The position numbers were made by a program, and so were the translations under genes. From NCBI RefSeq assembly GCF_024397855.1, contig NZ_CP073343.1:3038001-3102000 (forward strand): a DNA stretch of 64,000 nucleotides, written 5' to 3'. Source of the DNA: Marinomonas rhizomae. GTDB taxonomy: Bacteria; Pseudomonadota; Gammaproteobacteria; Pseudomonadales; Marinomonadaceae. The notes under the pieces were generated by a model that saw only the letters and a program-made list of their open reading frames with translations, was not told the DNA's origin and did not search any database. Shown piece after piece: positions 7,475 through 53,765 of this stretch (its first letter is position 1; every line of letters starts with the position of its first letter).

Positions 7475-9988
7475 TTAGCTTGGTAAAAATTCATTACTCC
7501 AGCCAGTTGCAGCAACGCCCTTTTCTAGCATCAAACATATATCGTCATCAGTGTAACCCAAGCTTCTCAAAACTTCGGTCGTTGAATGGCCAAATTTTTC
7601 TGCGGGTGTTACCGCTCTAATCTTGGCCTCTAACGGACGAATTGAGTATGGATCCACCTGAGTAATACAATGTCCACTAGGATGATTGGGGAAAATTGAG
7701 AAAGCATAACTTCCTCGATCAGTTCCCGCTTTCTGATCCGCCTGCCGGCTATTTTTCTCACGTAAAAGCTCAATAGACAAGGGTTCAGCACAAGCGATAT
7801 CAGCTAAAGAAAACGCGTTCAGCCAGTAGTCTGAGGACTCTTTCACGAGGTTTTCACGTAAAAATTGACTAATATCTTGGCTCTGTTGAATGCCGCCTAA
7901 GCCTTTAATAGCATCCAGTTTCGCCAACTCATCTTGGTGTGAATCTACAAATATCCAGCCATTAAGAGTTTGATAAAAATGTGATAAAGCGTGATTGCCC
8001 TTCGCCTCTCGACCAGACGCCTCGTTAAAAGGCCCACGCCCTTCATAATCAAAGGCAAACGGAAGCTGTGCAATATTGGTCACCGCAGACAATGATGTCC
8101 TCGCACGGCTCACTTTACCCGTTTTACGTTTTTGATATAGACCAACCACCATACCTAACGCACCAGCAAAACCACAATTCACATCGAGCGTACCCAAATG
8201 CGCATGTTCTTCAGGTGTTTCTGGCTTACCAAATCGGCTCATAATTCCACTATTTGCCTGAATAATATCGTCATAACCAATGTAATTTGTCTTACTACCT
8301 GCACGAGGCCCACCAAAACAGTCAAGGCGACAGAAGAGCACATCTGGGTTGATTGCACTCAAACTATCTTGATCCAAGCCCAACGGCCTCATTTGGCGAT
8401 CCGGAGCGTTAATAACCACCATATCCACGCTTTTGACTAAGCGTTCAAACACTTCACGGCCTTCTTTGGTCATGATATTAACCAACGCGCTTTGCTTACC
8501 GACACCCGTTTGAAACGTAAATAGAATACCTATCAGTGGATCGTACAGAGGCGTCACTGGGTCTAACTTAGTAATTTCAGCACCAAAGCGTGCCAAAAAT
8601 GCGGTAGAGTGAGGTCCAGCTATCACGTTGGTTAAATCTAAAATTTTCACCCCTTCCAACCAGCCTTTACCACTTGCTGGCTGAATGTCTTTTCCTGTTG
8701 GACGGGTGGTATTTTCTATTTTTGCAACATCTTGCAAACGTGCTAAGGCCTCTTCGAAGCTTACATTTTCTTGTGCATTTGGCTTCAGCATCGCTTCTGC
8801 TTCATTTTCGAACCAAACAATGGGTCCTGGCTGCTTCATCGTACCAAACTCTGTCCCTTCAACTTCAACGATTAATCCAGACTCCTTGCTATATTCACTG
8901 TTTACCCACTCTTGGGTTGTACGGTGAGGAGCTCCAGGTATTTGGCCTTCGCCAAAAATACCCCCCCACTCATCTGAGGTTTTTTGTAGGAAGGCTTTTT
9001 TCATCTTCTCTGAAATAATATCGGCCCATTTTTTCGGTAGCGGGTAAACACCGATAGAGGTTTCACCTTCCCACTCACTAATTGGAGCATGCAGGTCCTT
9101 CACATCTGGCAAGCCAGCCTCCACTAATTCGTCATAAATACCCAATACCTTCAATGCCCTTTTGGCATGATTTCGATGAGAAGGGCAAACACAATAAAAC
9201 AGGCGACCATCGGCACATAAATAGGTTCGATAAAATGGGTCTAAGTACTCTTGTAATTGTTCATAACTAAGATCCATTTTTATGCCATTGGACTTACGAT
9301 GTTCTATTTCTAATTCTCGCATGGTCTTATAACGCTCGGGCAGCTGCTCAACCAAATAAGAGTTATATGAAAGCCCTTCCATTAACGCAGCGGCAATAGG
9401 TACCTCAATATTATCCCCTCGACCTGTTTTTTCTCTTTCAAACAGCGCCAAAACAGCAGAGCTCGCAGCCAGAGAAATGGCATAAGATGAGCCCAATGGT
9501 AATGGTGAAAAGCTAGGGTTAAGTCCCATTAAAACTCGGTTAAAGCCCATATCAGTAAAAGAACCCGACGTCGCAGCAACTACTGCTTCCGTTGCCTTCC
9601 AGTCACGACGGAGTTCATCATTACTTGCAAAGCCAGGAATAGATAATGTAATTAATTCAGGGCGCGTCTCACGCAATTTTGCGAAATCAACCCCCAGCCT
9701 TTTCATCACACCGGGACGAAAACTTTCAATAACAATATCAACATTAGCGATTAACTCTAAGGCTTGGTCTAAACCTGACTGGCTCTTTAGATCTAAACGA
9801 AGAGAGGATTTATTACGGTTCAATACAGCGTTAGCAGGGTGCTGCCAACTAGGTCCATTTGGTGGATCTATATGTACGACCGTTGCACCTAAATCGGCCA
9901 ACACCATAGCCACAGCGGGACCCGCAATTTGCTGTCCAAAATCAGCAACGCGGACACCTACTAACGGTAGTTGATTCTGTTTATTCAT
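7475..9988 (-). CDS. dddD: DMSP CoA-transferase/lyase DddD
   Basis: 837 residues made of two class III (CaiB/BaiF) CoA-transferase domains in tandem: about residues 5-400 and 440-837. This double-length architecture is typical of DddD, which transfers CoA to dimethylsulfoniopropionate and releases dimethyl sulfide, giving 3-hydroxypropionyl-CoA. By my count an aspartate in LGTLDVNCGFAG falls at residue 602, the position reported as catalytic in Marinomonas DddD. The first domain starts with VGVRVADFGQQIAGPAVAMV and the second with GVKILDLTNVIAGPH. The divergent dddB and dddC and the nearby dddR strongly support the assignment. Cytoplasmic. Confidence 0.93.
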   Translation of the reverse strand: MNKQNQLPLVGVRVADFGQQIAGPAVAMVLADLGATVVHIDPPNGPSWQHPANAVLNRNKSSLRLDLKSQSGLDQALELIANVDIVIESFRPGVMKRLGVDFAKLRETRPELITLSIPGFASNDELRRDWKATEAVVAATSGSFTDMGFNRVLMGLNPSFSPLPLGSSYAISLAASSAVLALFEREKTGRGDNIEVPIAAALMEGLSYNSYLVEQLPERYKTMRELEIEHRKSNGIKMDLSYEQLQEYLDPFYRTYLCADGRLFYCVCPSHRNHAKRALKVLGIYDELVEAGLPDVKDLHAPISEWEGETSIGVYPLPKKWADIISEKMKKAFLQKTSDEWGGIFGEGQIPGAPHRTTQEWVNSEYSKESGLIVEVEGTEFGTMKQPGPIVWFENEAEAMLKPNAQENVSFEEALARLQDVAKIENTTRPTGKDIQPASGKGWLEGVKILDLTNVIAGPHSTAFLARFGAEITKLDPVTPLYDPLIGILFTFQTGVGKQSALVNIMTKEGREVFERLVKSVDMVVINAPDRQMRPLGLDQDSLSAINPDVLFCRLDCFGGPRAGSKTNYIGYDDIIQANSGIMSRFGKPETPEEHAHLGTLDVNCGFAGALGMVVGLYQKRKTGKVSRARTSLSAVTNIAQLPFAFDYEGRGPFNEASGREAKGNHALSHFYQTLNGWIFVDSHQDELAKLDAIKGLGGIQQSQDISQFLRENLVKESSDYWLNAFSLADIACAEPLSIELLREKNSRQADQKAGTDRGSYAFSIFPNHPSGHCITQVDPYSIRPLEAKIRAVTPAEKFGHSTTEVLRSLGYTDDDICLMLEKGVAATGWSNEFLPS

Positions 9989-14694: not shown

Positions 14695-16323
14695 TTACTT
14701 ATTTCGCTCACCTCTGAGAGCTATGACAATGCAGTAGCACATCAGTAGCATTAAAATAGAGAACGGAATAGCTGTTGCTGTTACCCCCGCTTGAAGCGCA
14801 GATAAGCCACCACCGATTAATAATACGATAGCAATTAAGCCTTCAACTACAGCCCAAAATATACGCTGTGGGCGCGGTGCATCAACTTTACCACCAGCCG
14901 TAATAGTATCGATAACCAGTGAGCCAGAATCTGAGGAGGTTACAAAGAACACCAATGCCAAAATGATACCAACAATTGATGTAAAACCCGATAGTGGCAA
15001 CTCATTTAGCATACCGAAAAGTGATAGTTCAGGCCGATAGCTGTCTATCACATATTCCTTGACCAAGCTGTTGTTTGGGTCAGCATATAACTGATCCAGT
15101 GCAATACCACCAAACACCCCCATCCAGATAAAAATGAACAGACTTGGAACGATAAGTACACAAATCACAAATTCTCGAACAGTACGACCACGTGAGACGC
15201 GCGCAATGAACATGCCGACAAATGGCGCCCAACTAATCCACCAAGCCCAGTAGAATACAGTCCATCCTTGGCGATAAGCGTCATCATCACGGCCAAATGG
15301 AGCAGATAATGGAATAAATTCCGTAACGTATTTAGTTAACCCCGTCCAGAAGCCGTTTAAACCTACCAAAGTTGGGCCAGCAAACAATACAAATAGGAAG
15401 AAAAGTACAGCCATGACCATATTTATTTCAGAAAGCTTTTTCACCCCTCCCTCTAGTCCACGCCATACTGACACTAATGCAACGGCCGTCACTAATGTGA
15501 TTACAATCACTTGAGTTGTTGTATTGACTTCCATACCAAATATGAAATTCATTCCAGCATTTGCCTGTTTTGCACCAAGTCCTAGTGACGTAGCCAAGCC
15601 AAAGAGAGTAGAAAACACGGCCAGTACATCAATCATGTCGCCCGTCCATCCCCAAACGCGATCACCAAATATTGGAAAGAAAACTGAACGAATTGAAAAT
15701 GGTAAACCTTTGTTATAGGTAAATATACCTAGACCTAGAGCCATGATAACGTAAACTGCCCAACCATGAATCCCCCAGTGAAGGAAGGTTCCGGCAAGCC
15801 CCATAGCGGTCGCTTCTTCTACTGCGCTTGGTATAAGTTCTCCATTGGCGGCAAAAGGAGATGTGATACCTAAAGGTAAAGATACGTTACCGTGATATAC
15901 AGGCTCTAACACACTGAAGAATAACAGCCCGATTCCTATACCTGCAGTAAATAGTAAAGCAAACCAAGATAAGTAGCTGTGATCTGGTTTGGCATTTTCC
16001 CCTCCTAGACGGACTGAACCGTAGGGGGAAATAGCAAGAAATACACAAAACAATATGAAAAAATCAACAAGACCTAAGAAATACCAATCCAGTGTTTTGG
16101 TTGAGAAAGACACTATGGATTGAAAGATGTTACCTGCTTCCGCTGGAAAAGCCAGAGTAAGTAAAATGAAAATGATGGATGTAAGAGAGGATATTATGAA
16201 TACTCGGTTGTGGATATCAAAGCCTAATGGTCCAAATGTACCTACAATATTGTCTTGCCCGACAACATAAGCTGTTTGCATATCACCTTTATTATTGGTG
16301 GGGTTAGATTTTTTATCGGTCAT
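14695..16323 (-). CDS. BCCT-family transporter, probable DMSP/betaine carrier
   Basis: About 542 residues from ATG 16323; a GTG at 16338 is in frame, but AAGGGG is placed better for the ATG. About twelve hydrophobic helices are visible. The BCCT signature region GWTVFYWAWWISWAPFVGMF is followed by IARVSRGRTVREF, and a glycine-rich stretch FTAGIGIGLLFFSVLEP precedes it. BCCT proteins import quaternary ammonium or sulfonium compounds with Na+ or H+. Placed next to dddR and convergent with it, this gene probably supplies DMSP and may replace the decayed copy at 10475. A role in glycine betaine or choline uptake cannot be excluded. Confidence 0.88.
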   Translation of the reverse strand: MTDKKSNPTNNKGDMQTAYVVGQDNIVGTFGPLGFDIHNRVFIISSLTSIIFILLTLAFPAEAGNIFQSIVSFSTKTLDWYFLGLVDFFILFCVFLAISPYGSVRLGGENAKPDHSYLSWFALLFTAGIGIGLLFFSVLEPVYHGNVSLPLGITSPFAANGELIPSAVEEATAMGLAGTFLHWGIHGWAVYVIMALGLGIFTYNKGLPFSIRSVFFPIFGDRVWGWTGDMIDVLAVFSTLFGLATSLGLGAKQANAGMNFIFGMEVNTTTQVIVITLVTAVALVSVWRGLEGGVKKLSEINMVMAVLFFLFVLFAGPTLVGLNGFWTGLTKYVTEFIPLSAPFGRDDDAYRQGWTVFYWAWWISWAPFVGMFIARVSRGRTVREFVICVLIVPSLFIFIWMGVFGGIALDQLYADPNNSLVKEYVIDSYRPELSLFGMLNELPLSGFTSIVGIILALVFFVTSSDSGSLVIDTITAGGKVDAPRPQRIFWAVVEGLIAIVLLIGGGLSALQAGVTATAIPFSILMLLMCYCIVIALRGERNK

Positions 16324-16844
16324 ATCCCGCCCCTTCACATTGCAATTTACATTTTAGGTAAAACGTTTTTCGTGTCATATGTGATCCTTATTTAAACCTG
16401 TTGATTTAATTTTTTATTTTATTTATTGAGTTATTATATCCTTTTCATCTCTCTAAAATTATCTTTCCACTTTTTCGTATCTATACCCAAAATATTGACA
16501 AAACTAATTAATAAGTTAGTTGTTTATTATTAACGTTATAACTAGATTCATCTGTTATTTGAAATACGTTAATCGATAATGAGCAACATTTAGAAGCTTG
16601 TAAACTAGGTATAAACTAATGGATAACATAAGGTTTTCTTATGCAAAGGAATTTCCCCTAGATTGTTGTTGGTTTTTTGGCTTTAACAAAATCCAGACTC
16701 CGTTCAGGGCCAAACTAATCATTCTCCAATACATGGCACAAATATTGGCGCCTTACGCAACATCATTGGCGCGATTTGCAACTAATTCACTCATAATTTC
16801 TCTTACAATTGATCGACATTAATGACAGCGATATAGGCATCAAC
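16324..16844. other. Divergent intergenic region between BCCT gene and SDR gene
   Basis: 521 bases, very AT-rich. It holds a small inverted repeat AACTAA-N8-TTAGTT at 16502-16521 and a TTGACA hexamer at 16496, without a convincing partner box. A 67-codon open frame at 16619-16822 has no coding support. Presumably it contains both promoters. Confidence 0.45.
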
Positions 16845-18677: not shown

Positions 18678-19586
18678 CTATTTATTTACTTCATTAATAA
18701 ACCAATCGATAACCAATCCGATTGCGGCAGTGGATTTATAATCAGAGCAAATATGGTATCCACGCCGTGGAGATTTAAGGATGGGGTTGAATGCAATTAA
18801 CTTGCCTTCTTCAATCTGTTTATCTAACAAACCTTTCCACCCCAGACAAAGACCTTGACCGGCAATGGCAGCCTCAACAACAAGCGGGTAATTTTGATAA
18901 CAAAATATAATAGGCTGATCCGAAATATTGACCCCCAATGTAGATGCCCAGTTGTACCAATTTATCCACCTAGGGTCATTCTGATCTTTATGTAAAAGTG
19001 GAAGTGATCTCAAATCCCCCAAGGTTTTACCTGGTGATAGATTTAATTTTTTTGCCAATTCGGGAGAACATACTGGAAAAACTTCTTCCTCGATAAGTAG
19101 TTTTTCAAACTGATATTGGCCTAATTCATTACAGAAATGAAACGAGATATCGGAATTTAATGAAAGCATATCCTGCTTACTATTCGTTGGACGGATTTCA
19201 AATAGGTAATCTGGGAACTGGCGTTGTAATTCTGTCAACTTGGGCATCAGCCAATAAAAGGCAAAGCCAAAATAGGCGCTAATAGACACCTTTACTTTTG
19301 TTGCAGTCAAGTTAGATTTGACTTTTTCTAACGAAGATAAAAGGGGACCTAAGCCATTTTTCATGTCTTTGTAAAATTTTTGTCCTGCATCGGTTGTTAC
19401 AATCGGCTTTTTAGACCTGTCAAGTAAGATACCTCCTACATATTCCTCTAACGCTCGAATGCGTTGAGAGACTAATGGCTGAGTGATACCTAATTCTCTG
19501 GCTGCAGCGGTCATAGAGCCTTTTTTTACAGTCATTTCAAAAGCAATAAGTGCCGAGATAGATGGAAAGTCAGTTTCTTTTATCAT
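18678..19586 (-). CDS. LysR-family regulator, divergent from the oxygenase operon
   Basis: 302 residues. The helix-turn-helix (GSMTAAARELGITQPLVSQR) is near residues 20-45, followed by an effector-binding domain. The start is 91 bases from the start of the dioxygenase gene on the other strand, the usual LysR arrangement, so it probably activates the 19677-22387 operon when its substrate is present. The effector is unknown. Confidence 0.85.
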   Translation of the reverse strand: MIKETDFPSISALIAFEMTVKKGSMTAAARELGITQPLVSQRIRALEEYVGGILLDRSKKPIVTTDAGQKFYKDMKNGLGPLLSSLEKVKSNLTATKVKVSISAYFGFAFYWLMPKLTELQRQFPDYLFEIRPTNSKQDMLSLNSDISFHFCNELGQYQFEKLLIEEEVFPVCSPELAKKLNLSPGKTLGDLRSLPLLHKDQNDPRWINWYNWASTLGVNISDQPIIFCYQNYPLVVEAAIAGQGLCLGWKGLLDKQIEEGKLIAFNPILKSPRRGYHICSDYKSTAAIGLVIDWFINEVNK

Positions 19587-19676
19587 TAGATTTCTGCATG
19601 TAACACATTAGAATTTAAGTCTGCCTTGTGGAAAGAATATAACAGATACTGATACCAATATATGGGAGAGACAAAT

Positions 19677-20789
19677 ATGAAACAAGTAACATTTTCAGTC
19701 AATAAAGAGAATAATGCTTTGCTAGGCCAGTTTGAAGGGGAGAGCATTGAGCTACCTGCTCTATGGCTTCGAGAGCGCTGTCAAGACGAACTGCACTTAG
19801 ACAGAGTAACCAAGCAACGCCTTTTCGATCCACATCAACTTCCAGAAGACCTTCGCGTTAAGAAAATAGAGTCTCTATCTGCAGATAAACTACAAATCTC
19901 ATTCAGCGATGGTTATGAAGGAACTTATAACATAAATGAATTTGATGCTGATTTTGACATTTGGGATGGGGCACCAGAACCAAAGCCATGGTTAAGCGAT
20001 GTCGATAAATCTAATTTCTATGTGGAATATGAAGACCTAAGATCAGAAAAAGGTCTTTTTAATGCACTAAAAACCTTTATAACATACGGCCTTATTATCG
20101 TTAACGGCGTACCTGAGCGCTCGGACACTGTCCTAGAGGTCGCCGAATTTTTCGGACATGTCCGTCAAACTAACTTCGGTAAATATTTTGAAGTTTATAC
20201 CCGACCAGACTCTAACGATTTAGCCTATCGTTCCGTATCTCTTGGACCACATACTGATAACCCTTATCGAGACCCAATGCCTGGCATACAGCTACTGCAT
20301 TGTATTAAAAATGAAACTACAGGTGGACTATCAACACTTGTTGATAGTCTTTCTGTTATAGAGCAGCTACGTAAAGAAGACCCGCATGGCGTAAAACTAC
20401 TAAGCACAATACCTGTTCGCTACCGTCACTTTGATCAAGATGTCGACCTCATTGAGCGCCGCACCATGATTCAGCTGGACTCGGCTGGACGAGTCGAAGG
20501 CGTCGCCTACAGTCCCAGATTGGATTTCTTACCATTATTGCAACCAGAAGAACTAAAAGTATTTCATAGAGCACGCAAGAGATTGGGTCTGTTATTCTCC
20601 GATGCACGCTTTGAATGGCGCTTCAAACTGGAACCAGGTCAGCTTCAAATGTTCCATAATACTCGAGTCTTACATGGTCGAACCTCTTTTGACCCGAATG
20701 AAGGACTTCGTCATTTACAGGGAGCCTATATCGATCTTGATGAGCCTAAAGGCCGTTATTTAGCTCTCAAAAGAAGGCTCTTAGCGTAA
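19677..20789 (+). CDS. Fe(II)/2-oxoglutarate dioxygenase, gamma-butyrobetaine hydroxylase / TmpA-like
   Basis: 370 residues from ATG 19677, chosen over ATG 19662 because GGGAGAG sits 6 bases upstream. Residues 1-100 are the N-terminal domain of gamma-butyrobetaine hydroxylases (LPALWLRERC); residues 110-370 are a TauD-type jelly roll. Iron ligands are His192 and Asp194 (GPHTDNP) and His333 (NTRVLHGRTSF); Arg345 (GLRHLQGAY) would bind 2-oxoglutarate. The zinc-binding cysteines of animal BBOX are not all present. The next gene is an HD-domain oxygenase, a pairing known from TmpA/TmpB (trimethylaminoethylphosphonate) and PhnY/PhnZ. Substrate likely carries a quaternary amine or phosphonate; true carnitine synthesis remains possible. 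Confidence 0.85.
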   Translation: MKQVTFSVNKENNALLGQFEGESIELPALWLRERCQDELHLDRVTKQRLFDPHQLPEDLRVKKIESLSADKLQISFSDGYEGTYNINEFDADFDIWDGAPEPKPWLSDVDKSNFYVEYEDLRSEKGLFNALKTFITYGLIIVNGVPERSDTVLEVAEFFGHVRQTNFGKYFEVYTRPDSNDLAYRSVSLGPHTDNPYRDPMPGIQLLHCIKNETTGGLSTLVDSLSVIEQLRKEDPHGVKLLSTIPVRYRHFDQDVDLIERRTMIQLDSAGRVEGVAYSPRLDFLPLLQPEELKVFHRARKRLGLLFSDARFEWRFKLEPGQLQMFHNTRVLHGRTSFDPNEGLRHLQGAYIDLDEPKGRYLALKRRLLA

Positions 20790-20813
20790 ACCTAAAACCA
20801 GCAGGAGAAAGAA

Positions 20814-21434
20814 ATGGAAAAAGTACAGTTTCGCCAAATGAAAGATGGCACAAAAGAAGAATACGATTTTTTAGAAAAGCATGAAAGTGACTACGCAGCG
20901 GGCTTGCCTGATAGAATTCTTAGCGCTCTTAGAAACCTTGAAAACAGCTTGTCAGGTTATCAAGTGACAAGGTTAGAACATTCTTTACAAACAGCAACTC
21001 GAGCAGAAGCTGATGGCGCAGACGAAGAGATGGTCCTTGCTGCGCTTATACATGACATAGGAGATGATCTTTCACCATACAATCATTCGCAACTTGCCGC
21101 TTCAATTATACGTCCATACGTGAGGCCTGAGGTTACATGGATTATTAATCAACATGGCTTATTCCAAAATTATTACTATATTCACTTTTATGGCGGCAAC
21201 CCTAATGAACGTGACTACCTCAAAGACCACCCTTGGTATCAAAAGTGCGTCGATTTCTGCGAGAAATGGGATCAAGCATCATTCGACCCAGATTACCCTA
21301 CCAAACCTTTAGAATATTTTGAGCCATTAGTCCGAAAAATTTTCACAAGGCCAGCTTTTTCCGAACAATACGTAGGCTCACAAACAATGGGCAAAAGCTC
21401 AGTTGATATAGCTATGTCGGGAGTAGCTATATGA
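20814..21434 (+). CDS. HD-domain diiron oxygenase, TmpB/PhnZ-like
   Basis: 206 residues. Six candidate metal ligands are visible: His56 (LEHSLQ), His80-Asp81 (LIHDIGDD), His91 (YNHSQLA), His114 (NQHGLF) and Asp153 (EKWDQASFDP). A two-iron HD domain of this pattern is seen in PhnZ, TmpB and myo-inositol oxygenase, rather than in ordinary phosphohydrolases. An N-terminal DYAAGLPDRI segment resembles the substrate-closing loop of PhnZ. PhnZ and TmpB cleave the C-P bond of a 1-hydroxyphosphonate made by the partner dioxygenase. It lies 24 bases after that partner and overlaps the next gene by 4 bases. Substrate not proven. Confidence 0.8.
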   Translation: MEKVQFRQMKDGTKEEYDFLEKHESDYAAGLPDRILSALRNLENSLSGYQVTRLEHSLQTATRAEADGADEEMVLAALIHDIGDDLSPYNHSQLAASIIRPYVRPEVTWIINQHGLFQNYYYIHFYGGNPNERDYLKDHPWYQKCVDFCEKWDQASFDPDYPTKPLEYFEPLVRKIFTRPAFSEQYVGSQTMGKSSVDIAMSGVAI

Positions 21435-22387
21435 ATAAAAATGTCCTAACGTGCAACAACATGCTTGAAGCAATCGGTAACACGCCTGTTGTTAAGCTTA
21501 ATAACATCCTCCCCGCTGGTTGTGCTGATGTTTATGTAAAGCTGGAATATTTCAATCCTACTGGCTCTTATAAAGATCGAATGGCAAAGACAATGGTCGA
21601 AGAAGCTGAAAAACGGGGAGAATTAAAAGCAGGCATGACGGTCGTGGAAGCAAGCGGAGGCAGCACTGGCTCCTCACTCGCATTCGTTTGTGCTGTAAAA
21701 GGTTATAAATTTAAAATCATATCGTCGAATGCTTTTGCCTCAGAAAAATTAAAAACTATGGATGCATTTGGTGCAGATGTAGAAATCATACACAGTGAAT
21801 CAGGAAAAATTAGTGCTGACCTGATTCCCAAGATGATTAGCCAATCTGTTGAGTATGGCAAACTTGCGAATTTTTATCCCACCGACCAATTTTCAAACCG
21901 CGATGCATTAATTGGTTACGAGGTGATCGGCCAGGAAATTGCAAAACAGTTTCCACAAGGTGTGGATGCATTTTGTGGGGCGGCAGGTGTTGCTGGAATG
22001 ATAATGGGCGTTGCTACAGTATTGAAGCAAATTAACCCTGAAACGAAGATTTACGTGCTTGAGCCTGACACTTCTCCGATGATATCGAAAGGGTATGCTG
22101 GTGAGCACCATGTAGAAGGTATCGGTATTGGCTTTATTCCGCCCTTTCTAGACGAAAAGCTCTACGATGAAGCATGGGGAATATGTGAACTTGAAGGCCG
22201 TAAAATGTGTCGAGAGCTAGCCGAAAAGGAGGGTATTCTTGCAGGCACATCTACCGGACTTAATGTCGTGGCCGCCATCAAACTTGCCAAAACATTAGGG
22301 CCAGGTAAAACCGTTGTTACAGTGGCATGCGATACAGGGATTAAATACATGGCTGGTGGACTATTCAACAAACAAACGGAGCAATAA
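21431..22387 (+). CDS. PLP-dependent beta-family (cysteine synthase-like) enzyme
   Basis: 318 residues of fold type II. The PLP lysine is Lys48 in NPTGSYKDRM; the phosphate-facing loop is EASGGSTGSSLA and the second glycine loop is GTSTGLNV. CysK enzymes normally have SGNTG, so SGGSTG is a departure that suggests another substrate. The start overlaps the HD gene stop (ATGA), making a three-gene operon closed by a terminator. It could carry out a beta-elimination or replacement on a product of the two oxygenases, or be a cysteine synthase paralogue. Function beyond the fold is open. Confidence 0.8.
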   Translation: MNKNVLTCNNMLEAIGNTPVVKLNNILPAGCADVYVKLEYFNPTGSYKDRMAKTMVEEAEKRGELKAGMTVVEASGGSTGSSLAFVCAVKGYKFKIISSNAFASEKLKTMDAFGADVEIIHSESGKISADLIPKMISQSVEYGKLANFYPTDQFSNRDALIGYEVIGQEIAKQFPQGVDAFCGAAGVAGMIMGVATVLKQINPETKIYVLEPDTSPMISKGYAGEHHVEGIGIGFIPPFLDEKLYDEAWGICELEGRKMCRELAEKEGILAGTSTGLNVVAAIKLAKTLGPGKTVVTVACDTGIKYMAGGLFNKQTEQ

Positions 22388-22508: not shown

Positions 22509-22535
22509 GCATTCAATGAATGTTGAATGCTTTTT
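22509..22535 (+). terminator. Rho-independent terminator after the oxygenase operon
   Basis: GCATTCAA and TTGAATGC pair around TGAATG, followed by five T. It ends the 19677-22387 transcript. Confidence 0.75.
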
Positions 22536-23834: not shown

Positions 23835-25319
23835 TCAAGCTACACGACGCTTTTCTCTAATTTTGCTATAAGTAAATACAAAAATAGATAAAAGAGTCAC
23901 ACTAAATAAAGTCAATGCAATTGGACGATCTAAAAAGACATCAAAACTGCCATTAGATACACCTAAAGCCTGACGCATGCGATTTAAGAACACTGGCCCC
24001 AACACCAAACCTAAAATAATAGGCACAGCGGGGATATTATTTCTTTTCATAATATAACCAATCACTGAGAACCCGAGTGCAATAAAGGCATCTGTAAACT
24101 GATAATTCTGACTGTAAGCCCCTAGGAAACCGAGAACAAAAATCAGTGCACCAATAAAACGGCCACGAATCCGAGTAATATTTACGATAAACCTCGAAGC
24201 AAAAGTTAAGTAGATGAAGATAAAAATATTCATCACGAACAAAGCCACATACAGACCGGAAATAAATTCAGGGTGTTCAGTAAATAATCTTGGACCTGGC
24301 GTATAGTTATGAACCATAAATACCGACAGTAGCATCGCCATTAAAGCATCAGCAGGAATACCAAATGCTAACAAAGGCACCAAGACAGACGCTGTTACCG
24401 CATTATTTGACGTTTCTGAAGCGACGATGCCTGCCTCAGCGCCTTTACCGAATTCATCAGGATTCTTCGAAAACTTCTGTGCCAAAGTATAGGAAAAGAA
24501 CTGGGATCCAAATTCGCCAACGCCTGGCAATAGCCCCATCACGACCCCTAAAATTGCCGAACGTATTGCCGTCACTTTATTGCGCATCAAAACAAAAAAG
24601 CCTTCAAAACGCCCAGATCCCTCTAACTTCGTTTTAAAAGAGTCATTACCTTTTGCAGAAATCAGTACATACGCTTGCGACATAGCAAAAAGGCCAATCA
24701 CTGCGGGGACTAATGGCACCCCAGCTAACAGCCAAGGTTGGTCAAAAGTGTAAACTTGAGTATTAAAAGATCGGTCAATACCGACCGAACCTAAAAACAT
24801 ACCAAGACCAATCATAGCAGCAGCTTCAAGGGCATATTTATTGTGCGCTAGCACGACAAACACCATCCCAAGTAATGCCAGCATGGCAAATTCTGCGCTA
24901 CCAAATAGCGTCGCGACCTGAGACAAAGTCGGTGCAAAAAACACTAACGATAGAACACTGACGATTCCACCAAAAAATGAAGACGTATAGGCAATCGATA
25001 ACGCCTTTTTGCCTTCCCCACGTTTGGCCATGGGATAACCATCATAAGTGGTAAGAACAGCCACCGGCGTTCCTGGTGTATTCATTAATATGGCAGGGAT
25101 AGCGCCGCCATACCAAGCACCACCATAAACCCCTAACAATAATGTCACACCAAACAATGGTTCCATTGTAAAAGTTAAAGGCAACAATATCGCCATTACA
25201 CCAGCGGGTTCTAGCCCGGGAATGGAGCCGATAGTGACACCAATAAGGGCACCGATAATAACAGCCCATATGACGCCGTTACCAAATACTTCATTGATAC
25301 CTAATGCTATTAAATCCAT
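23835..25319 (-). CDS. TctA-family large permease, TTT system 2
   Basis: 494 residues, full length. It shows the family's GSIPGLEPAGVMAILLPLTF, the LMNTPGTPVAVLTTYDGYPMAKR segment and VMGLLPGVGEFGSQF. About eleven transmembrane helices can be picked out. The small permease gene ends 8 bases upstream. It would form the pore for uptake of a carboxylate driven by an ion gradient; substrate unknown. Confidence 0.92.
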   Translation of the reverse strand: MDLIALGINEVFGNGVIWAVIIGALIGVTIGSIPGLEPAGVMAILLPLTFTMEPLFGVTLLLGVYGGAWYGGAIPAILMNTPGTPVAVLTTYDGYPMAKRGEGKKALSIAYTSSFFGGIVSVLSLVFFAPTLSQVATLFGSAEFAMLALLGMVFVVLAHNKYALEAAAMIGLGMFLGSVGIDRSFNTQVYTFDQPWLLAGVPLVPAVIGLFAMSQAYVLISAKGNDSFKTKLEGSGRFEGFFVLMRNKVTAIRSAILGVVMGLLPGVGEFGSQFFSYTLAQKFSKNPDEFGKGAEAGIVASETSNNAVTASVLVPLLAFGIPADALMAMLLSVFMVHNYTPGPRLFTEHPEFISGLYVALFVMNIFIFIYLTFASRFIVNITRIRGRFIGALIFVLGFLGAYSQNYQFTDAFIALGFSVIGYIMKRNNIPAVPIILGLVLGPVFLNRMRQALGVSNGSFDVFLDRPIALTLFSVTLLSIFVFTYSKIREKRRVA

Positions 25320-25327
25320 AAAAATCT

Positions 25328-25855
25328 CTAAAAGTATTTATTCATAAACCAAAGGGTTTCACCGCTGAATAGCGTTTCATACAAAAGCACGTCTGGAATC
25401 CAGATATTTACCCCAACTCTAAAGATTAGGACAATTAATGCGACAGCAATAAAGGTGTTCAGCACCCAAATTCGCGACATTAGACGACTAAGCCAAACAA
25501 TAGACAAAACAAACAACAGAGTTGATAGAGTAAAGCCAAGGATCGTAATAGCGTTGACATAGACAAAGAAAAGAATGCCAGTAATAACAACCATACGGTA
25601 ATAGCTTAGGCTTTCTACAAAGCTTTCCAGCAAGCTTTTTTCTCCCTCTATCGGCCTAATCACCAACATGAGTTTGATAAAAGAAAAAAATGCTAATATG
25701 CCCAAGCCAAATAAAGGTGCGACATACGGCTGGGTATACCAACCATGATCACGTTTAATTTCGAGAGTGTGGCTTTGATAAGTAAAAATTAAATAGACAC
25801 TAACGATGGTTATGACCAGAAAAAACAGCTTGGATTTACGGTGCTCATATTCCAT
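25328..25855 (-). CDS. TctB-family small permease, TTT system 2
   Basis: 175 residues from ATG 25855, which has GAGGGGG just upstream; the frame can be extended to 25903, but that would overlap the UspA gene by 59 bases instead of 11. Four hydrophobic helices are visible. The 11-base overlap with the stop of the UspA gene indicates translational coupling. Confidence 0.85.
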   Translation of the reverse strand: MEYEHRKSKLFFLVITIVSVYLIFTYQSHTLEIKRDHGWYTQPYVAPLFGLGILAFFSFIKLMLVIRPIEGEKSLLESFVESLSYYRMVVITGILFFVYVNAITILGFTLSTLLFVLSIVWLSRLMSRIWVLNTFIAVALIVLIFRVGVNIWIPDVLLYETLFSGETLWFMNKYF

Positions 25856-26357
25856 TTTTACCCCCCTCTTTTTTACTAACAACAGTATTAGAGATAGGCA
25901 CAATCAAAACAGGCACGGTCGTATTATGAATAACTTTCTGTGCCGTTGAACCTAGGAACATACGAGACAAAGCATTGACACGACGATCCCCCATTACAAC
26001 CATGCTCGCCTCAACATCTTTTATCGTGTCGACAATTTTTTTAGCTGGGTCGCCAAAACGAACCACAACGTCAATGCTGTCTTCACTGAACTCAATATCA
26101 CTCAACTCTTCAGCAACGAAATTATGGATTCGCAGCTTCATATAAGTTCGTATCTCGTCTTTCAACGATTCCAAATGCGCATCATGCGCTTTCTTTAATT
26201 TGAACCCCACAAAAGAGTCATCATTACCACGGTGAAACTGATCAGAAACATGCAGGAAAAAGATCTTGCCGTTAGAGCAAGCAGCCTGTTCTAACGCTGC
26301 GCGCAGTACGACTCGACTCCCTTGTTCTAAATCAGATGCATATAAAATATTTCGCAT
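25845..26357 (-). CDS. Universal stress protein (UspA) domain protein in a TTT operon
   Basis: 170 residues, one UspA domain from the start (RNILYASDLEQGS) to the end (NTTVPVLIVPIS). The ATP-binding pattern G-2X-G-9X-G-S/T is nearly kept: GDRRVNALSRMFLGST has Arg where the second Gly is expected. The gene overlaps the tctB start. A comparable arrangement exists for TeaD, a UspA protein that regulates the TeaABC ectoine TRAP transporter. A regulatory subunit of the transporter is therefore plausible but not shown. Confidence 0.88.
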   Translation of the reverse strand: MRNILYASDLEQGSRVVLRAALEQAACSNGKIFFLHVSDQFHRGNDDSFVGFKLKKAHDAHLESLKDEIRTYMKLRIHNFVAEELSDIEFSEDSIDVVVRFGDPAKKIVDTIKDVEASMVVMGDRRVNALSRMFLGSTAQKVIHNTTVPVLIVPISNTVVSKKEGGKNGI

Positions 26358-26602
26358 TTATGGACTCCAAGAGGCCTTTCACAATGTCACGAGCATAACC
26401 AAGAAAAGATAAAACAGACGAAAAAGCAGATAACTACATGAATATAGTTATTAAGGCGACGCAGATAGCCGAGGCCGAGTTCATGATTTATCAATACACA
26501 TCTAAAGTCTGTTTTTAACAAAGTATTGGTGAGCGCTGTAGTCATGCAAAGGTCTTCCGAAATATAGCCATCTAAACCATGGCTATACTTCAGCGTAAGA
26601 AC

Positions 26603-27961
26603 TTACTTCGCTCGGTTAACAACCTTACGAACCGTGTTCTCTAACAACCCCTCCATACCAAACTCGACGCCCAATCCAGATGATTTATTACCACCAAAAG
26701 GGACGTGAGGTAGCACTTCTGCATGGTTATTTACCCATACCGTCCCTGAATCAAGCTGATCAACAACCCAATCTAGTTCAGCGCAAGGCTCACCCCACAC
26801 AGAGCCACCTAAAGCAAACTCTTCGTGAATAGCTTTTGACATAACCTCGTTAAGATCATCGTAAGGAATAACAGGAAGCACCGGACCAAATTGTTCATGA
26901 CAAACCACATCAATACTGTGCTGTGGGTCTTTAATAATGGTAGGCGCAATAAAATACCCATCTAAGCCAGACGGTAAATCTGCGGCAATAACCTCAGCCC
27001 CAGATTCACGTGCATCAGCAATCATAGCTTTCACCTTTTCATACTGATTTACGTTTTGCACAGGCCCAAAAGTCACGCCTTCTTGCGTACCATCACCAAC
27101 AACTTGCGCCGCGGCTATTTTTACTAAAGCATCGCATAAAGCTTCATATTTAGAACGGTGGACATAGAGGCGTTTTAAACAAGCGCATGTTTGCCCCATA
27201 TTGACAAAAGAAGTCATGAAAATCTTTTCGGCAATCTTCTCAACATTGGCATTTTCTAAAACAATCCCAGCATCATTACCACCCAGTTCCAGTGTTACCT
27301 TTTTCAGGTCACCGGCAACCAAAGAAGCAATACGCTTACCTACCGGTGTTGAACCAGTAAAGACCACTTTTTTAACATCAGGATGCGATACCAAAGGTTC
27401 GCCAACTTCTCTTTCACCGATAACACACTGTACTAAGTTTGGTATTGTGTGCTCATTAATAATATCGACTAAACGAAGTGTATTAATGGGCGTCAAAGAA
27501 GAAGGCTTAATCACCACGCTATTGCCCGCACGAAGGGCTGGCATGATATGCCAAATGGCAATCATTAAAGGCCAGTTCCAAGGCGTGATGGAGGCAACGA
27601 CACCAACGGGCATACGATGCACCTCAACACGACGCTCTTCACTGTCTTCCAGCACTTCTGGTTCGAGTGTTAAATCTGCGTTGTAGTGAGTCCATCCCAC
27701 AGCACCGCCCACTTCAAACTGAGCAAGAAACAATGGCTTTCCTTGCTCTGCTGTAATGATTGCAGCCAGCTCAGGCGCTGCCGCCTCAATGGCATTAGCA
27801 ACATTATGTAAGGCTGCTGTACGCTCTTCGTGAGATTTCGCACTCCACTGCTTAAAAGCAATCTTAGCGTTTTCAACAGCACTGTTTACGTCGTCTACTG
27901 TTGAAGTCTGAATCGACTTATAGGTTTGCTTAGTCGCAGGATTAATAATATCTAAAGCCAT
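26603..27961 (-). CDS. Aldehyde dehydrogenase in TTT operon 2
   Basis: 452 residues. ALDH motifs are complete: SITPWNWPL, the lysine in VVIKPSSLTP, FTGSTPVGK, the glutamate in TLELGGNDAG and the cysteine in NMGQTCACLKR. It lies between the binding-protein gene and the UspA gene on the same strand, so the imported compound probably becomes, or is, an aldehyde precursor. The substrate is not identifiable from sequence. Confidence 0.92.
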   Translation of the reverse strand: MALDIINPATKQTYKSIQTSTVDDVNSAVENAKIAFKQWSAKSHEERTAALHNVANAIEAAAPELAAIITAEQGKPLFLAQFEVGGAVGWTHYNADLTLEPEVLEDSEERRVEVHRMPVGVVASITPWNWPLMIAIWHIMPALRAGNSVVIKPSSLTPINTLRLVDIINEHTIPNLVQCVIGEREVGEPLVSHPDVKKVVFTGSTPVGKRIASLVAGDLKKVTLELGGNDAGIVLENANVEKIAEKIFMTSFVNMGQTCACLKRLYVHRSKYEALCDALVKIAAAQVVGDGTQEGVTFGPVQNVNQYEKVKAMIADARESGAEVIAADLPSGLDGYFIAPTIIKDPQHSIDVVCHEQFGPVLPVIPYDDLNEVMSKAIHEEFALGGSVWGEPCAELDWVVDQLDSGTVWVNNHAEVLPHVPFGGNKSSGLGVEFGMEGLLENTVRKVVNRAK

Positions 27962-28013
27962 GTTTCCACCATTCTTTTTATTTTGAGCAATACGATGTGC
28001 AAAAAATGAATAA

Positions 28014-28970
28014 CTATTTATTCTCAGCTACTAATTTTTTTGCATTTTCGAAGTCAAGTTCGATCAACTTTTGTGCGTTTTTCGAGTTTGTCCAGTACAC
28101 ACTCGCACCTGTATTCTCTTGCAATTTCAACACGTCAGGTGACTGAAGGGCCGTCTCGGCAATAGCCGCAATTTTGTCGATAATAGGTTGCGGAGTGCCT
28201 TTTTTCACAAACAAACCATTCCATAGGGTTTGAGAAATACCCGCTACTTCATTCAAAGTTGGTACATCTGGTAAAATAGACAGACGCTGGAATGTGAAAG
28301 AAGTTAAAACCTTCACATCTTTTGAATCCAAGCAAGGAAGAATTTGTTGTGTCGTTGTATTGATAACATCAGCATCGCCATTGGCTAATGCAGAACAATC
28401 TAATGCATCAAAGGCTGAATCGGAGGCAAATTTAAACCCTAATTTTTTCGCGGCTTGAAAAGTAACAGCCGTTGGCGTCGCTTCATAACCAAAGTGACCT
28501 AAAGACACATCGTGTGTTTTTGCATACTCAGCCAACTCCGGCAATGTGCTGTATGGCGCATCCGATTTAACGGCAAGAACAAATGGATAATCTAGAAAAA
28601 TCCCAACTGGAACAAACGCATCAGCAGGGTACGGAGCATTCCCGCCTACGACTTGGCTTGTTACTAGATCCACCACAAAAGAACCAATCACACTACCATC
28701 AGGACGAGATTGCGCCACTGTCGTTGCACCAAGTACACCACCGCCACCAGGCTTGTTAACCACAGTCGCTGGTACGCCAGTTTCTTTCGACATTTCTTCA
28801 GCAATAACGCGTGTCAAAACATCTTCCAAATCACCAGGAGGAAATGGAACGATGAATTTAACCGGTCGATTCGGGTAGTCTGCCGCGAATGTCACCGTAC
28901 TTGCCAATGAAGAAATAACTAAGGTTGAAGCGACCAGCGCTTTTAGAGCAAAAGATATTTGTTTTTTCAT
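28014..28970 (-). CDS. TctC/Bug-family periplasmic binding protein, TTT system 2
   Basis: 318 residues with a signal peptide ending near TVTFAADYPN. The mature protein has VKFIVPFPPGDLEDVLTRVI and VNKPGGGGVLGATTVAQ. The first ligand loop is PPGDLED rather than the usual PPGGxxD, a small departure that may alter ligand preference. It is probably the first gene of the operon that continues through aldehyde dehydrogenase, UspA, tctB and tctA. Confidence 0.9.
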   Translation of the reverse strand: MKKQISFALKALVASTLVISSLASTVTFAADYPNRPVKFIVPFPPGDLEDVLTRVIAEEMSKETGVPATVVNKPGGGGVLGATTVAQSRPDGSVIGSFVVDLVTSQVVGGNAPYPADAFVPVGIFLDYPFVLAVKSDAPYSTLPELAEYAKTHDVSLGHFGYEATPTAVTFQAAKKLGFKFASDSAFDALDCSALANGDADVINTTTQQILPCLDSKDVKVLTSFTFQRLSILPDVPTLNEVAGISQTLWNGLFVKKGTPQPIIDKIAAIAETALQSPDVLKLQENTGASVYWTNSKNAQKLIELDFENAKKLVAENK

Positions 28971-39298: not shown

Positions 39299-40804
39299 TT
39301 ATTGCTTCCCACTCTTAACTGAGGATCTAATTCCTAACCAGTAAATTGAAAAAACTGACATAAGCAACAAGGCAGCAGCAATCGGATGATTAATGAGATT
39401 CGTGATATCCCCACGAAGAATAGTCGCAGTTTGGCCTAAGGCAAGTTCAAACCGCGGTCCGAGAAAATAGGCAATGACAAAAATGACGATCGGATAGTTC
39501 AATGCGTTCATTATCATACCTATTGCGGCAAACATCAGCATGACATAGACACCGAACATACCACCAGTAGACAGATAAACCCCAACCATGCATAGCACAA
39601 GCCCACTTGAAAACACTATCGACTCAGGGGCCGTAATCAATTTTGCCCATAAGCGCAGTCCAAATAATCCAAAAATAAGGTTACAAACGTTAGCTATCAT
39701 CATGGCGCCAAATAATCCGTAGACGAGTTGCCCCTGCTCTTCGAACAATAACGGCCCAGGCTGTAATCCTTGAATCATAAAGGCACCAATAAGCAAAGCA
39801 GCCGAGACGCTCCCCGGTATACCCAGCGTTAGTAATGGGATCAAACTGGCGCCACCAACAGCCGAATTGGCCGACTCTGTCGCTGCAATACCGCGAAGAT
39901 CCCCTTTACCAAAGCTTTCAGGATCTTTAGCCGCTTGTTTCGTCGAGGCATAGCTCATAAAAGCGGCCGCGGTCGACCCAATCCCCGGTACAATGCCGAT
40001 ACAGATTCCTATCAGTGCGCCACGCAACAACACAAAACGACAAGATAAATATTCAGCCAAACTCACCCGTTTTTGATCATCGGTCTGATTTCGGGGAATA
40101 TGCAATGCGGGCCGCATACCACCTGTCATTCCAGCAAGGCGAGCGATAATGACAGATACCGCCAACGACCCAATCGCAACCGATGAAATAGGAAAACCGC
40201 CATACAAATCAGTAAACCCAAACAAAAATCGAGGTGTCGAGTGCTCTGGGTCAAGACCGACCGTCGAGACAAGCAACCCCAAAGCGGTCGCGATGATGCC
40301 TTTTGTCACCGATGCACCAATCAGTCCAGAGATCAACGCAAAAGCCATAATAATCAACGCAAATATCTCAACTGGCCCCATCTTTAATGCGACAACCGCC
40401 AACGGCGCTGCCACGGTAATCAAAACCAGATCGCTCAGCGTATCACCGCTAACCGAGGAATAGAGCGACATTTTTAACGCTTTAAGTGGCTTCCCCTTTT
40501 TCGTCATCGGATAGCCGTCAAACGCCGTCGCACTGGCGTCTGGTGTACCAGGCATATTGATCAAAATTGCCGGAATAGCTCCCCCCACCAGCCCACCTTT
40601 ATTAACTCCAATCAGGAAACCAATGGCGGATAAAGGCGCAAATACCAAGGTAAAAGGAATAGCGATCGCGATAGTCATTTCTTGACTACTCCCGGGCATA
40701 GCGCCGACGAACTGTCCAAGAACCACACCGGACAAAACGAAAAGGATAGTGGTCAGAGTAAACGCATCACCCAAACCGGCAAGTATTGTATTGAAATCAA
40801 CCAT
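39299..40804 (-). CDS. TctA-family large permease, TTT system 3
   Basis: 501 residues with VGAMPGSSQEMTIAIAIPFT, LINMPGTPDASATAFDGYPM and IGICIGIVPGIGSTAAAFMS, the three landmark TctA segments. About eleven membrane helices. The tctB stop lies 10 bases upstream. The glutamate-rich PGSSQE loop differs from PGLxP in systems 1 and 2, so ligand choice may differ. Confidence 0.92.
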   Translation of the reverse strand: MVDFNTILAGLGDAFTLTTILFVLSGVVLGQFVGAMPGSSQEMTIAIAIPFTLVFAPLSAIGFLIGVNKGGLVGGAIPAILINMPGTPDASATAFDGYPMTKKGKPLKALKMSLYSSVSGDTLSDLVLITVAAPLAVVALKMGPVEIFALIIMAFALISGLIGASVTKGIIATALGLLVSTVGLDPEHSTPRFLFGFTDLYGGFPISSVAIGSLAVSVIIARLAGMTGGMRPALHIPRNQTDDQKRVSLAEYLSCRFVLLRGALIGICIGIVPGIGSTAAAFMSYASTKQAAKDPESFGKGDLRGIAATESANSAVGGASLIPLLTLGIPGSVSAALLIGAFMIQGLQPGPLLFEEQGQLVYGLFGAMMIANVCNLIFGLFGLRLWAKLITAPESIVFSSGLVLCMVGVYLSTGGMFGVYVMLMFAAIGMIMNALNYPIVIFVIAYFLGPRFELALGQTATILRGDITNLINHPIAAALLLMSVFSIYWLGIRSSVKSGKQ

Positions 40805-40814
40805 AATGGTTCCT

Positions 40815-41234
40815 TTATGACAAAGCTCTACCGAGGACCTGCTCTACAAGCAACCAGACCCCCAATGGAATCAAAATACCGCCGAGCAACAACCAGTACC
40901 AACGCCTCTCACCGATGAAAAGCATAATCAGAAGCGCAAAAATAGGAGCAACATATTCAAATGCAAAGAGTTTCATCAACCAAGCAGTCGCTACCATCAA
41001 TGCTAAAAGAACGACTGTGCGTAAAACAACACGACCATTAAAGCCAACATTATCTTTCAGCGTTATCAATTGTATCGACGATGCTCCGACGATAATCCAC
41101 AACAATATTGTAGGAAGAGTGGCAGGAACAATACGACCGTAAGATACCGTTTCCACCTGTTGAGGCATCACTTGAAACAGAAAAGTGAGGCCAAAGACCA
41201 AAATGCCCCCTGTCACGATACGTTCTAAAGACAT
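40815..41234 (-). CDS. TctB-family small permease, TTT system 3
   Basis: 139 residues with four hydrophobic segments (about 7-22, 35-54, 68-92 and 98-133). It sits between tctC and tctA on the same strand with gaps of 53 and 10 bases. The call depends mainly on this gene order. Confidence 0.82.
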   Translation of the reverse strand: MSLERIVTGGILVFGLTFLFQVMPQQVETVSYGRIVPATLPTILLWIIVGASSIQLITLKDNVGFNGRVVLRTVVLLALMVATAWLMKLFAFEYVAPIFALLIMLFIGERRWYWLLLGGILIPLGVWLLVEQVLGRALS

Positions 41235-41287
41235 GTTCCCCCCTTAAAAAGCCGCCGGGCTTTATCAAGCACCAGCGGTCATATTTC

Positions 41288-53763: not shown

Positions 53764-53765
53764 AT

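Follow-up and report, generated by a model that had tools for sequence, protein, structure and literature searches.

What is oxidised by the paired enzymes encoded within positions 19,677 to 22,387 of a 64,000-nucleotide stretch of the Marinomonas rhizomae genome (the 4.37-Mb contig NZ_CP073343.1, positions 3,038,001 to 3,102,000), hereafter the window? Three genes follow one another there, encoding an Fe(II)/2-oxoglutarate dioxygenase, an HD-domain protein and a pyridoxal 5'-phosphate (PLP) enzyme. A preliminary description placed them in a phosphonate frame, with the PLP enzyme as an added third step, and neither idea is supported here. The conserved unit is the dioxygenase-HD pair, and the PLP gene is a local addition. 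Judged by sequence, the pair is a sister of the phosphonate-degrading TmpA/TmpB pair rather than a member of it. The chances appear about even that its substrate is trimethyllysine, hydroxylated at C3 by the dioxygenase and then cut oxidatively between C2 and C3 by the HD enzyme to give gamma-butyrobetaine.

The three plus-strand open reading frames (ORFs) were confirmed as first described; a gap of 24 bases separates gene 1 from gene 2, and gene 3 overlaps gene 2 by 4 bases:

19677..20789, + strand: Fe(II)/2-oxoglutarate dioxygenase, predicted trimethyllysine 3-hydroxylase of the TmpA sister clade (PF02668, PF06155, NCBIfam scores, tree)
20217..20219, + strand: codon of Asp186, at the position of BBOX Asn191, TmpA Asn187 and TMLH Asp231
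20517..20519, + strand: codon of Arg286, at the position of TmpA Arg288
20814..21434, + strand: HD protein, predicted C-C-cleaving mixed-valent diiron oxygenase (invariant ligands, model with pLDDT 92, Foldseek)
21431..22387, + strand: fold-type-II PLP enzyme of an SGGSTG subfamily, accessory gene (PF00291, distribution, loops)

The dioxygenase ORF has an alternative ATG at 19662, and the start at 19677 is more likely from the sequence, since GGGAGA lies directly 5' of that ATG. Dioxygenase residue numbers nevertheless count from 19662 (subtract 5 for the start at 19677).

Which of these genes travel together? A scan of one genome per species returned 358 relatives of the HD protein, of which the best 80 were kept; this choice favours close kin, and a class-wide dioxygenase search was run to offset the bias. 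The best 80 come from Marinomonas, Alteromonas, Paraglaciecola, Halomonas and its allies, Pseudomonas, Caulobacterales, SAR116 and metagenome-assembled genomes, with 34 loci from Pelagibacteraceae (SAR11); the closest named match among them, in a scan from which the window's own record may be missing, is from Marinomonas gallaica (98%). Of 143 related genomes, 30 gave an HD match with E<=1e-5, and some of these are weak. The new HD family was defined by a profile score above 120 bits and counted with one gene per locus, after removal of copies (L033-L038, which repeat loci among L066-L079) and with the window and three plasmid loci included; L102 was left out of alignment A1. The resulting set holds 118 HD genes, and a same-strand dioxygenase lies within 1 kb of 82 of them (34 in SAR11, 48 elsewhere). 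Eighty of these 82 dioxygenases (34 and 46, respectively) carry both Asp186 and Arg286, and in all 80 signature pairs the dioxygenase gene is upstream of the HD gene, at a spacing of -91 to +57 bases in 79. Neighbour counts here and below rest on simple ORF calls with BLAST and hidden Markov model cut-offs, not on annotation.

The dioxygenase matches PF02668 (TauD, 142 bits) and PF06155, the N-terminal domain typical of gamma-butyrobetaine hydroxylase (GBBH; 32 bits). Alignment with TmpA and BBOX places its iron ligands, which had been recognised as intact, at His197-x-Asp199...His338. It had been called TmpA/GBBH-like, and TmpA is indeed its closest relative by scores, structure and tree: the nearest solved structure is TmpA, then BBOX, and a quick tree unites the Asp-type dioxygenases (SH-aLRT 99) and places them as sister group of the TmpA clade (98). 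Membership does not follow, as it reaches 328.2 bits with the TmpA model NF049936 (equivalog cut-off 400) and 251 bits with the GBBH model (cut-off 414.75). The tree kept the Asp186 column and omitted near-identical rows and proteins shorter than 300 or longer than 600 residues; the HD tree likewise omitted near-identical rows and those above 320 or below 130 residues. In the phylogenies, proposed earlier as a check, the dioxygenase is nearest to TmpA and both proteins fall outside the TmpA and TmpB-PhnZ groups. The pair is considered a sister because scores fall below equivalog cut-offs, the YxxE loop is gone from the HD protein, and the Asn found in TmpA and BBOX has given way to Asp186.

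The pocket, like the gene neighbours, gives a clue to the substrate. According to a passage in PMC9296572, the phosphonate ligands of TmpA are N187, N287 and R288, with N191 and N293 as the BBOX counterparts; the BBOX N191 numbering was checked, and TmpA chain numbers equal the published ones plus 6. At the three TmpA positions the window's protein has Asp186, Pro285 and Arg286, and the FNNR phosphonate motif reads YSPR here and YSNR in SAR11. In trimethyllysine hydroxylase (TMLH), according to a passage in PMC7764450, Asp231 is the homologue of BBOX Asn191 and is believed to bind the alpha-ammonium group, and Y217, W221 and Y234 form an aromatic cage. The candidate cage residues here are F172, F176 and Y189, placed by the published TMLH residue spacings and not by alignment with TMLH.

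Is this aspartate tied to the new HD family? All six dioxygenases beside TmpB/PhnZ-like HD proteins have Asn instead (the HD partner at L103 being a weak match). Another 32 dioxygenases lack an adjacent HD gene: 25 have Asn (SAR11), two Thr (Marinomonas), one Ser (Pseudomonas marincola), one does not cover the site, and three have Asp. Those three (L097, L103 and L203) each have a new-family HD gene farther off in the same locus. The class-wide search, which did not pass through the HD gene, found 26 places in 18 of 369 genomes. Eight are of the Asp type (five with an FFDY and three with a WADM cage), with a new-family HD gene within the 1.5-kb flank in five and about 3 kb away in two; the flanks of the 18 non-Asp places hold a new-family HD gene in one case, a TmpB-like HD gene in five and neither in 12. 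Two systems even coexist in Marinomonas sp. MED121, where a TmpA above its cut-off (436.6 against 400) and a TmpB-like HD protein (234 bits, cut-off 300) are encoded at L065:5510-7289 and an Asp-type pair lies separately.

The six HD ligands singled out earlier (H56, H80, D81, H91, H114 and D153) do not vary across the 36 aligned relatives and form the H...HD...H...H...D motif of MIOX, TmpB and PhnZ. The hydrolase YqeK has the same ligand set (per a passage in PMC8177086), so that the motif alone does not decide between oxygenase and hydrolase. The predicted structure (pLDDT 92) is more telling: all ten Foldseek matches at E<=0.001 are PhnZ (2e-7 to 4e-6) or TmpB (1e-5), MIOX comes next at E 0.02, and hydrolases rank lower. 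This fold match bears out the preliminary assignment to the diiron HD oxygenases, and an ordinary phosphohydrolase was ruled out on the same ground. In sequence searches of the PDB, too, the only convincing HD relatives are PhnZ, the best, and TmpB, over a 40-residue core. Family models stay far below their cut-offs, with 41.0 bits for Phn-HD (214.6) and 41.4 for TmpB (300), and the MIOX family PF05153 reaches 20.7 (25). The YxxE loop, a substrate-gating feature of PhnZ and TmpB (as stated in PMC8177086), is absent from the alignment, in which L46 and Y49 occupy the positions of PhnZ Y24 and E27, and a fully supported branch of the HD tree splits the new family from the TmpB and PhnZ proteins. 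The HD protein is, by its modelled fold, an HD oxygenase that is neither TmpB nor PhnZ, predicted to be mixed-valent diiron and O2-using.

How does the pair compare with known systems? As in the TmpA/TmpB pair of Leisingera caerulea, which acts on trimethylaminoethylphosphonate, a dioxygenase is directly followed by a six-ligand HD protein, the dioxygenases are sister clades and the HD model matches TmpB; the differences are Asp for Asn187, YSPR or YSNR for FNNR, the missing YxxE, sub-threshold scores, and informative neighbours that are carnitine rather than phosphonate genes. PhnY/PhnZ, acting on aminoethylphosphonate, shares the HD fold and ligand motif, PhnZ being the best PDB match by both sequence and structure, whereas here the YxxE loop is lacking, identity in the structural match is 22-24%, and the dioxygenase partner has a GBBH-type N-terminal domain. 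MIOX shares the six-ligand diiron site and, by prediction, C-C cleavage, although the match is weak and the substrate different. With TMLH and the eukaryotic carnitine pathway, finally, the likenesses are the Asp at the alpha-ammonium position, the cage spacing and a predicted product leading to GBBH. The differences are a TMLD score below its cut-off and an HD oxygenase that would stand in for the PLP aldolase and aldehyde dehydrogenase.

Carnitine genes accompany the pair in three lineages. In SAR11, the locus L106 carries GBBH, carnitine dehydrogenase and BKACE on the divergent strand, and aldehyde dehydrogenase and acetoacetate-CoA ligase directly upstream on the pair's own strand; of these five, only the ligase exceeds its NCBIfam cut-off, the aldehyde dehydrogenase being betaine-aldehyde-dehydrogenase-like (434 bits, cut-off 668.6). 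Of the 34 SAR11 loci, 26 have all five; 31 have the ligase, and the other three end with their contig at the dioxygenase gene. In P. marincola the row reads OpuAC, BKACE, carnitine dehydrogenase (537 bits, cut-off 414), a gene similar to the C-terminal region of carnitine 3-dehydrogenase, which we take to be a thioesterase, GBBH (431 bits, cut-off 414.75), dioxygenase and HD. In Marinomonas colpomeniae and M. ushuaiensis, the pair is found with GBBH, an AraC/DJ-1 regulator, presumably CdhR-like, betaine ABC transporter genes, carnitine dehydrogenase and BKACE; family scans covered M. colpomeniae, where a class II aldolase gene (L068:5088-5834) and a glyoxylate-reductase-like gene (216 bits, cut-off 403) lie upstream. 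A Pseudomonas plasmid (NZ_CP115240.1) joins the pair to genes for a CoA-transferase, a LysR regulator, a choline binding protein, choline dehydrogenase and an aldehyde dehydrogenase; IS66 genes also lie near the pair there. No phosphonate gene was seen among the annotated neighbours of the pair.

Across whole Marinomonas genomes, carnitine dehydrogenase is present in three of the seven that bear the pair versus two of the rest (three with the weak match in G012), and GBBH in four of seven versus five. Fisher tests give p 0.017-0.037 with the same-genus total assumed to be 46 or 48 and with related genomes; this link within the genus is only a hint and was not adopted.

Trimethyllysine is proposed because the pocket seems to bind both a trimethylammonium and an alpha-ammonium group, and because the HD product should suit GBBH. 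In the first step, the cage of F172, F176 and Y189 would hold the trimethylammonium end while Asp186 held the alpha-ammonium and Arg286 perhaps the alpha-carboxylate, and C3 would be hydroxylated. In the second, modelled on C-P cutting by PhnZ and TmpB and C-C cutting by MIOX, the mixed-valent diiron site of the HD protein would use O2 to cut C2-C3, turning the hydroxylated carbon into a carboxylate and releasing C2 as iminoglyoxylate, which would go on to glyoxylate and ammonia. Such a cut after C3 hydroxylation leaves exactly the four-carbon gamma-butyrobetaine, and the equation balances, arithmetically, as a four-electron oxidation. Gene content suggests that some lineages would continue through carnitine and dehydrocarnitine to glycine betaine. 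In the window's species, where the downstream carnitine genes were not found, we would guess that gamma-butyrobetaine is kept as an osmolyte or activated by a CoA-transferase. The eukaryotic conversion of hydroxytrimethyllysine to gamma-butyrobetaine needs an aldolase and a dehydrogenase (PMC7764450). The broader claim, that bacteria including SAR11 convert trimethyllysine to gamma-butyrobetaine by an O2-dependent route, with a single diiron HD oxygenase replacing both enzymes, we hold at slightly less than an even chance.

Several observations weigh against trimethyllysine as the substrate. To begin with, we infer the substrate, the products and both reactions from genes, a predicted fold, a pocket and neighbours. 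The TMLD model TIGR02410 gives 165.8 bits, short of its cut-off of 268.3; of the 82 pairs, 45 carry Pro, 36 Asn and one Ser where BBOX has Asn292/293 and TmpA has Asn287, and the second trimethyllysine contact of TMLH, N334, is not evidently kept in the sequence. Two of the 82 paired dioxygenases form a distinct type, with Asn and with His in the pocket (FHNH); the other cage, WADM, is found in three Asp-type proteins. Since the Asp-type proteins form one clade, the Asp may have arisen once and been inherited along with the HD partner rather than selected repeatedly. No dioxygenase lies within 1 kb of 36 of the 118 new-family HD genes, although an Asp-type one is found farther off in three of these loci (L097, L103 and L203). 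The full-length SAR11 locus L125 has the ligase without GBBH, carnitine dehydrogenase, BKACE or aldehyde dehydrogenase, and outside SAR11 carnitine dehydrogenase or BKACE is near the pair in only three of 46 loci. Searches of the window's own genome returned no carnitine dehydrogenase (one weak match inside a 720-residue frame) and no second GBBH, and a BKACE query that finds its target in two sister species found none there. Lastly, the aldehyde dehydrogenase of the SAR11 operon would be superfluous if the HD step gave the acid directly.

Could the same neighbours serve another substrate? The pair might shorten delta-valerobetaine (5-trimethylaminovalerate) by hydroxylation at C2 and oxidative decarboxylation by the HD protein to gamma-butyrobetaine and CO2, a carboxylate taking the place of the phosphonate. 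The carnitine genes fit this equally, it is the closest formal analogy to TmpA/TmpB, and gut bacteria produce delta-valerobetaine from trimethyllysine with DavB/DavA, according to a passage in PMC11773067. In that case Asp186, at the site of the BBOX Asn, would lie opposite a carboxylate and find no amine as its partner, and no DavB/DavA-like gene was recognised among annotated neighbours, no targeted search having been made. We regard this alternative as unlikely.

A pathway of three enzymes, with the PLP enzyme converting the amino-acid substrate or product (it might be a racemase or a dehydratase of 3-hydroxytrimethyllysine), seems decidedly unlikely. In its favour are the 4-base overlap with the HD gene and the position of the PLP gene directly downstream of the pair in M. 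gallaica; the BKACE query found nothing in M. gallaica, the other PLP-gene species, either, and the downstream route of both may differ. The distribution points the other way: only two of the 143 relatives have the PLP gene at E<=1e-75, and among the loci whose gene order was drawn it follows the pair in the window and M. gallaica only. On plasmids, 20 records carry a relative (E<=1e-70), from Rhizobium (16), Variovorax, Bosea, Phyllobacterium and Deinococcus (one each), 19 of them at 60-80% identity, with relatives of 66-71% among them, and mostly from legumes, roots or nodules; none is among the 15 plasmid records with an HD match. In four plasmid regions that were read, contexts differ and no pair lies within 8 kb. 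A conserved third step, as first proposed, was ruled out by this distribution, and the PLP gene is an optional local addition. The protein itself is as described, PF00291 (PALP) of fold type II, with the unusual loop (EASGGSTGSS) and a second one, GA[AV]GVAG, kept in six of six aligned members. It shares fold and family with cysteine synthase (O-acetylserine sulfhydrylase), but GA[AV]GVAG stands where the nearest PDB cysteine synthase has GTGGT, and scores are low for cysKM (264.8, cut-off 344.15), cysK (256.9, 350.95) and cysM (196.3, 394.2), as they are below the cut-off of each of the 25 NCBIfam models listed, out of 36 matched. The preliminary description had named, as grounds for doubt, a PLP gene that occurs without the pair and behaves as a normal cysteine synthase. 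The gene does occur without the pair at the level of plasmid records rather than whole genomes; by its scores and loops, the protein seems unlike a plain cysteine synthase. Two records of Rhizobium indicum (H18 and H19) have the relative annotated as two pieces.

Quite improbable, too, is a non-oxidative cut, in which the HD protein, with a hydrolase-like metal site, would split 3-hydroxytrimethyllysine by retro-aldol chemistry into glycine and trimethylaminobutyraldehyde, leaving an aldehyde dehydrogenase to finish. The betaine-aldehyde-dehydrogenase-like gene of the SAR11 operon would suit it, as would the class II aldolase genes, two adjoining unpaired HD genes and one lying upstream of a pair. 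Against it, the HD fold matches the oxygenases PhnZ, TmpB and MIOX and not hydrolases, and a similar aldehyde dehydrogenase (32-35%) is found in only three of 46 loci outside SAR11.

A true phosphonate pair, a TmpA/TmpB variant acting on a trimethylammonio- or amino-phosphonate, retains very little probability, for although TmpA and PhnZ/TmpB are the best named matches and Arg286 equals TmpA Arg288, it is set aside as first choice by the pocket (Asp at the Asn187 position, FNNR lost), the lost YxxE loop, the HD scores, the position of the dioxygenase in a sister clade, the carnitine rather than phosphonate genes among the annotated neighbours and the genome that holds TmpA and the new pair separately.

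The new HD family probably serves other substrates too, because some of its genes are unpaired, some partners have an Asn/His pocket and others the WADM cage. Beside nine unpaired HD genes that were scanned, the neighbours are mixed and tell no single story: class II aldolase (twice), RACo, ABC-2, GntP, beta-lactamase-like, metallophosphoesterase/lectin and alpha/beta hydrolase genes, and one without a hit. The two aldolase cases are L047:6216-7608 and L052:6226-7664, and the unpaired HD gene directly 3' of a RACo gene (L043:7081-9798) suggests a corrinoid methyltransfer context. Two of three FHNH...NQ-pocket dioxygenases (L045, L200, which is the L226 gene, and L228) adjoin a new-family HD gene, suggesting a further substrate. 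In the WADM subfamily (L229, L230 and L234), two of three have a long (about 300 residues), divergent new-family HD gene, and the one long protein tested has no Pfam match.

Other features of the window may serve the pair:

18678..19586, - strand: LysR regulator, divergent from the pair (choline-sulfate-regulator-like, 211 bits, below the cut-off of 324.8)
22509..22530, + strand: terminator-like stem and T run 3' of the PLP gene (stem scan)
7475..9988, - strand: 837-residue double CaiB/BaiF-type CoA-transferase, possible partner gene (CoA-transferase models match both halves, all below cut-off)
14695..16338, - strand: BCCT betaine/carnitine/choline-type transporter, possible uptake gene (PF02028, 562 bits)

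The LysR protein is likely the regulator of the pair; a related LysR gene (E<1e-30) is present in 27 of the best 80 HD loci, and BCCT genes best matched by the window's own in five. A 69% identical copy of the CoA-transferase adjoins the pair on the Pseudomonas plasmid, and a 71% copy adjoins the PLP gene in M. gallaica. Eight terminator-like sites were found in the region against 3.9 expected from shuffles; the promoter scan was uninformative (four sites against 9.9 in shuffles), and an Rfam scan of the window gave one tRNA and no match at the operon. Farther off, positions 52729-55064 (- strand) hold a class III aminotransferase-like gene (485.8 bits against a portion of the PRK06148 model, whose cut-off is 1128) beside a 344-residue gene that looks by eye like a phosphotransferase-type kinase; the two are reminiscent of hydroxylysine kinase/phospholyase pairs. 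Three gene sets (1-2306, 23835-28970 and 39299-42253) resemble, again by eye, tripartite tricarboxylate transporters with binding proteins.

A search of open-licence papers brought up no bacterial hydroxylase/HD pathway for trimethyllysine. An Arctic SAR11 study (PMC12421898) describes an island in which carnitine dehydrogenase and BKACE accompany two genes called BBOX; its main text contains neither "HD domain" nor "trimethyllysine".

Trimethyllysine is released on the breakdown of methylated proteins. If the proposed pathway is true, it would be a prokaryotic entry into carnitine chemistry, through which abundant marine bacteria would turn protein-derived trimethyllysine into carnitine, glycine betaine and a C2 unit. 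It would also be, to our knowledge, the first prediction of an HD oxygenase that cleaves the backbone of an amino acid. Ocean genes now read as phosphonate oxidation (PhnZ/TmpB-like) would in part belong to the trimethyllysine route. Estimates of phnZ abundance in surface seawater conflict, according to a passage in PMC10574752, and the finding could bear on that conflict if new-family HD genes had entered the counts as phnZ.

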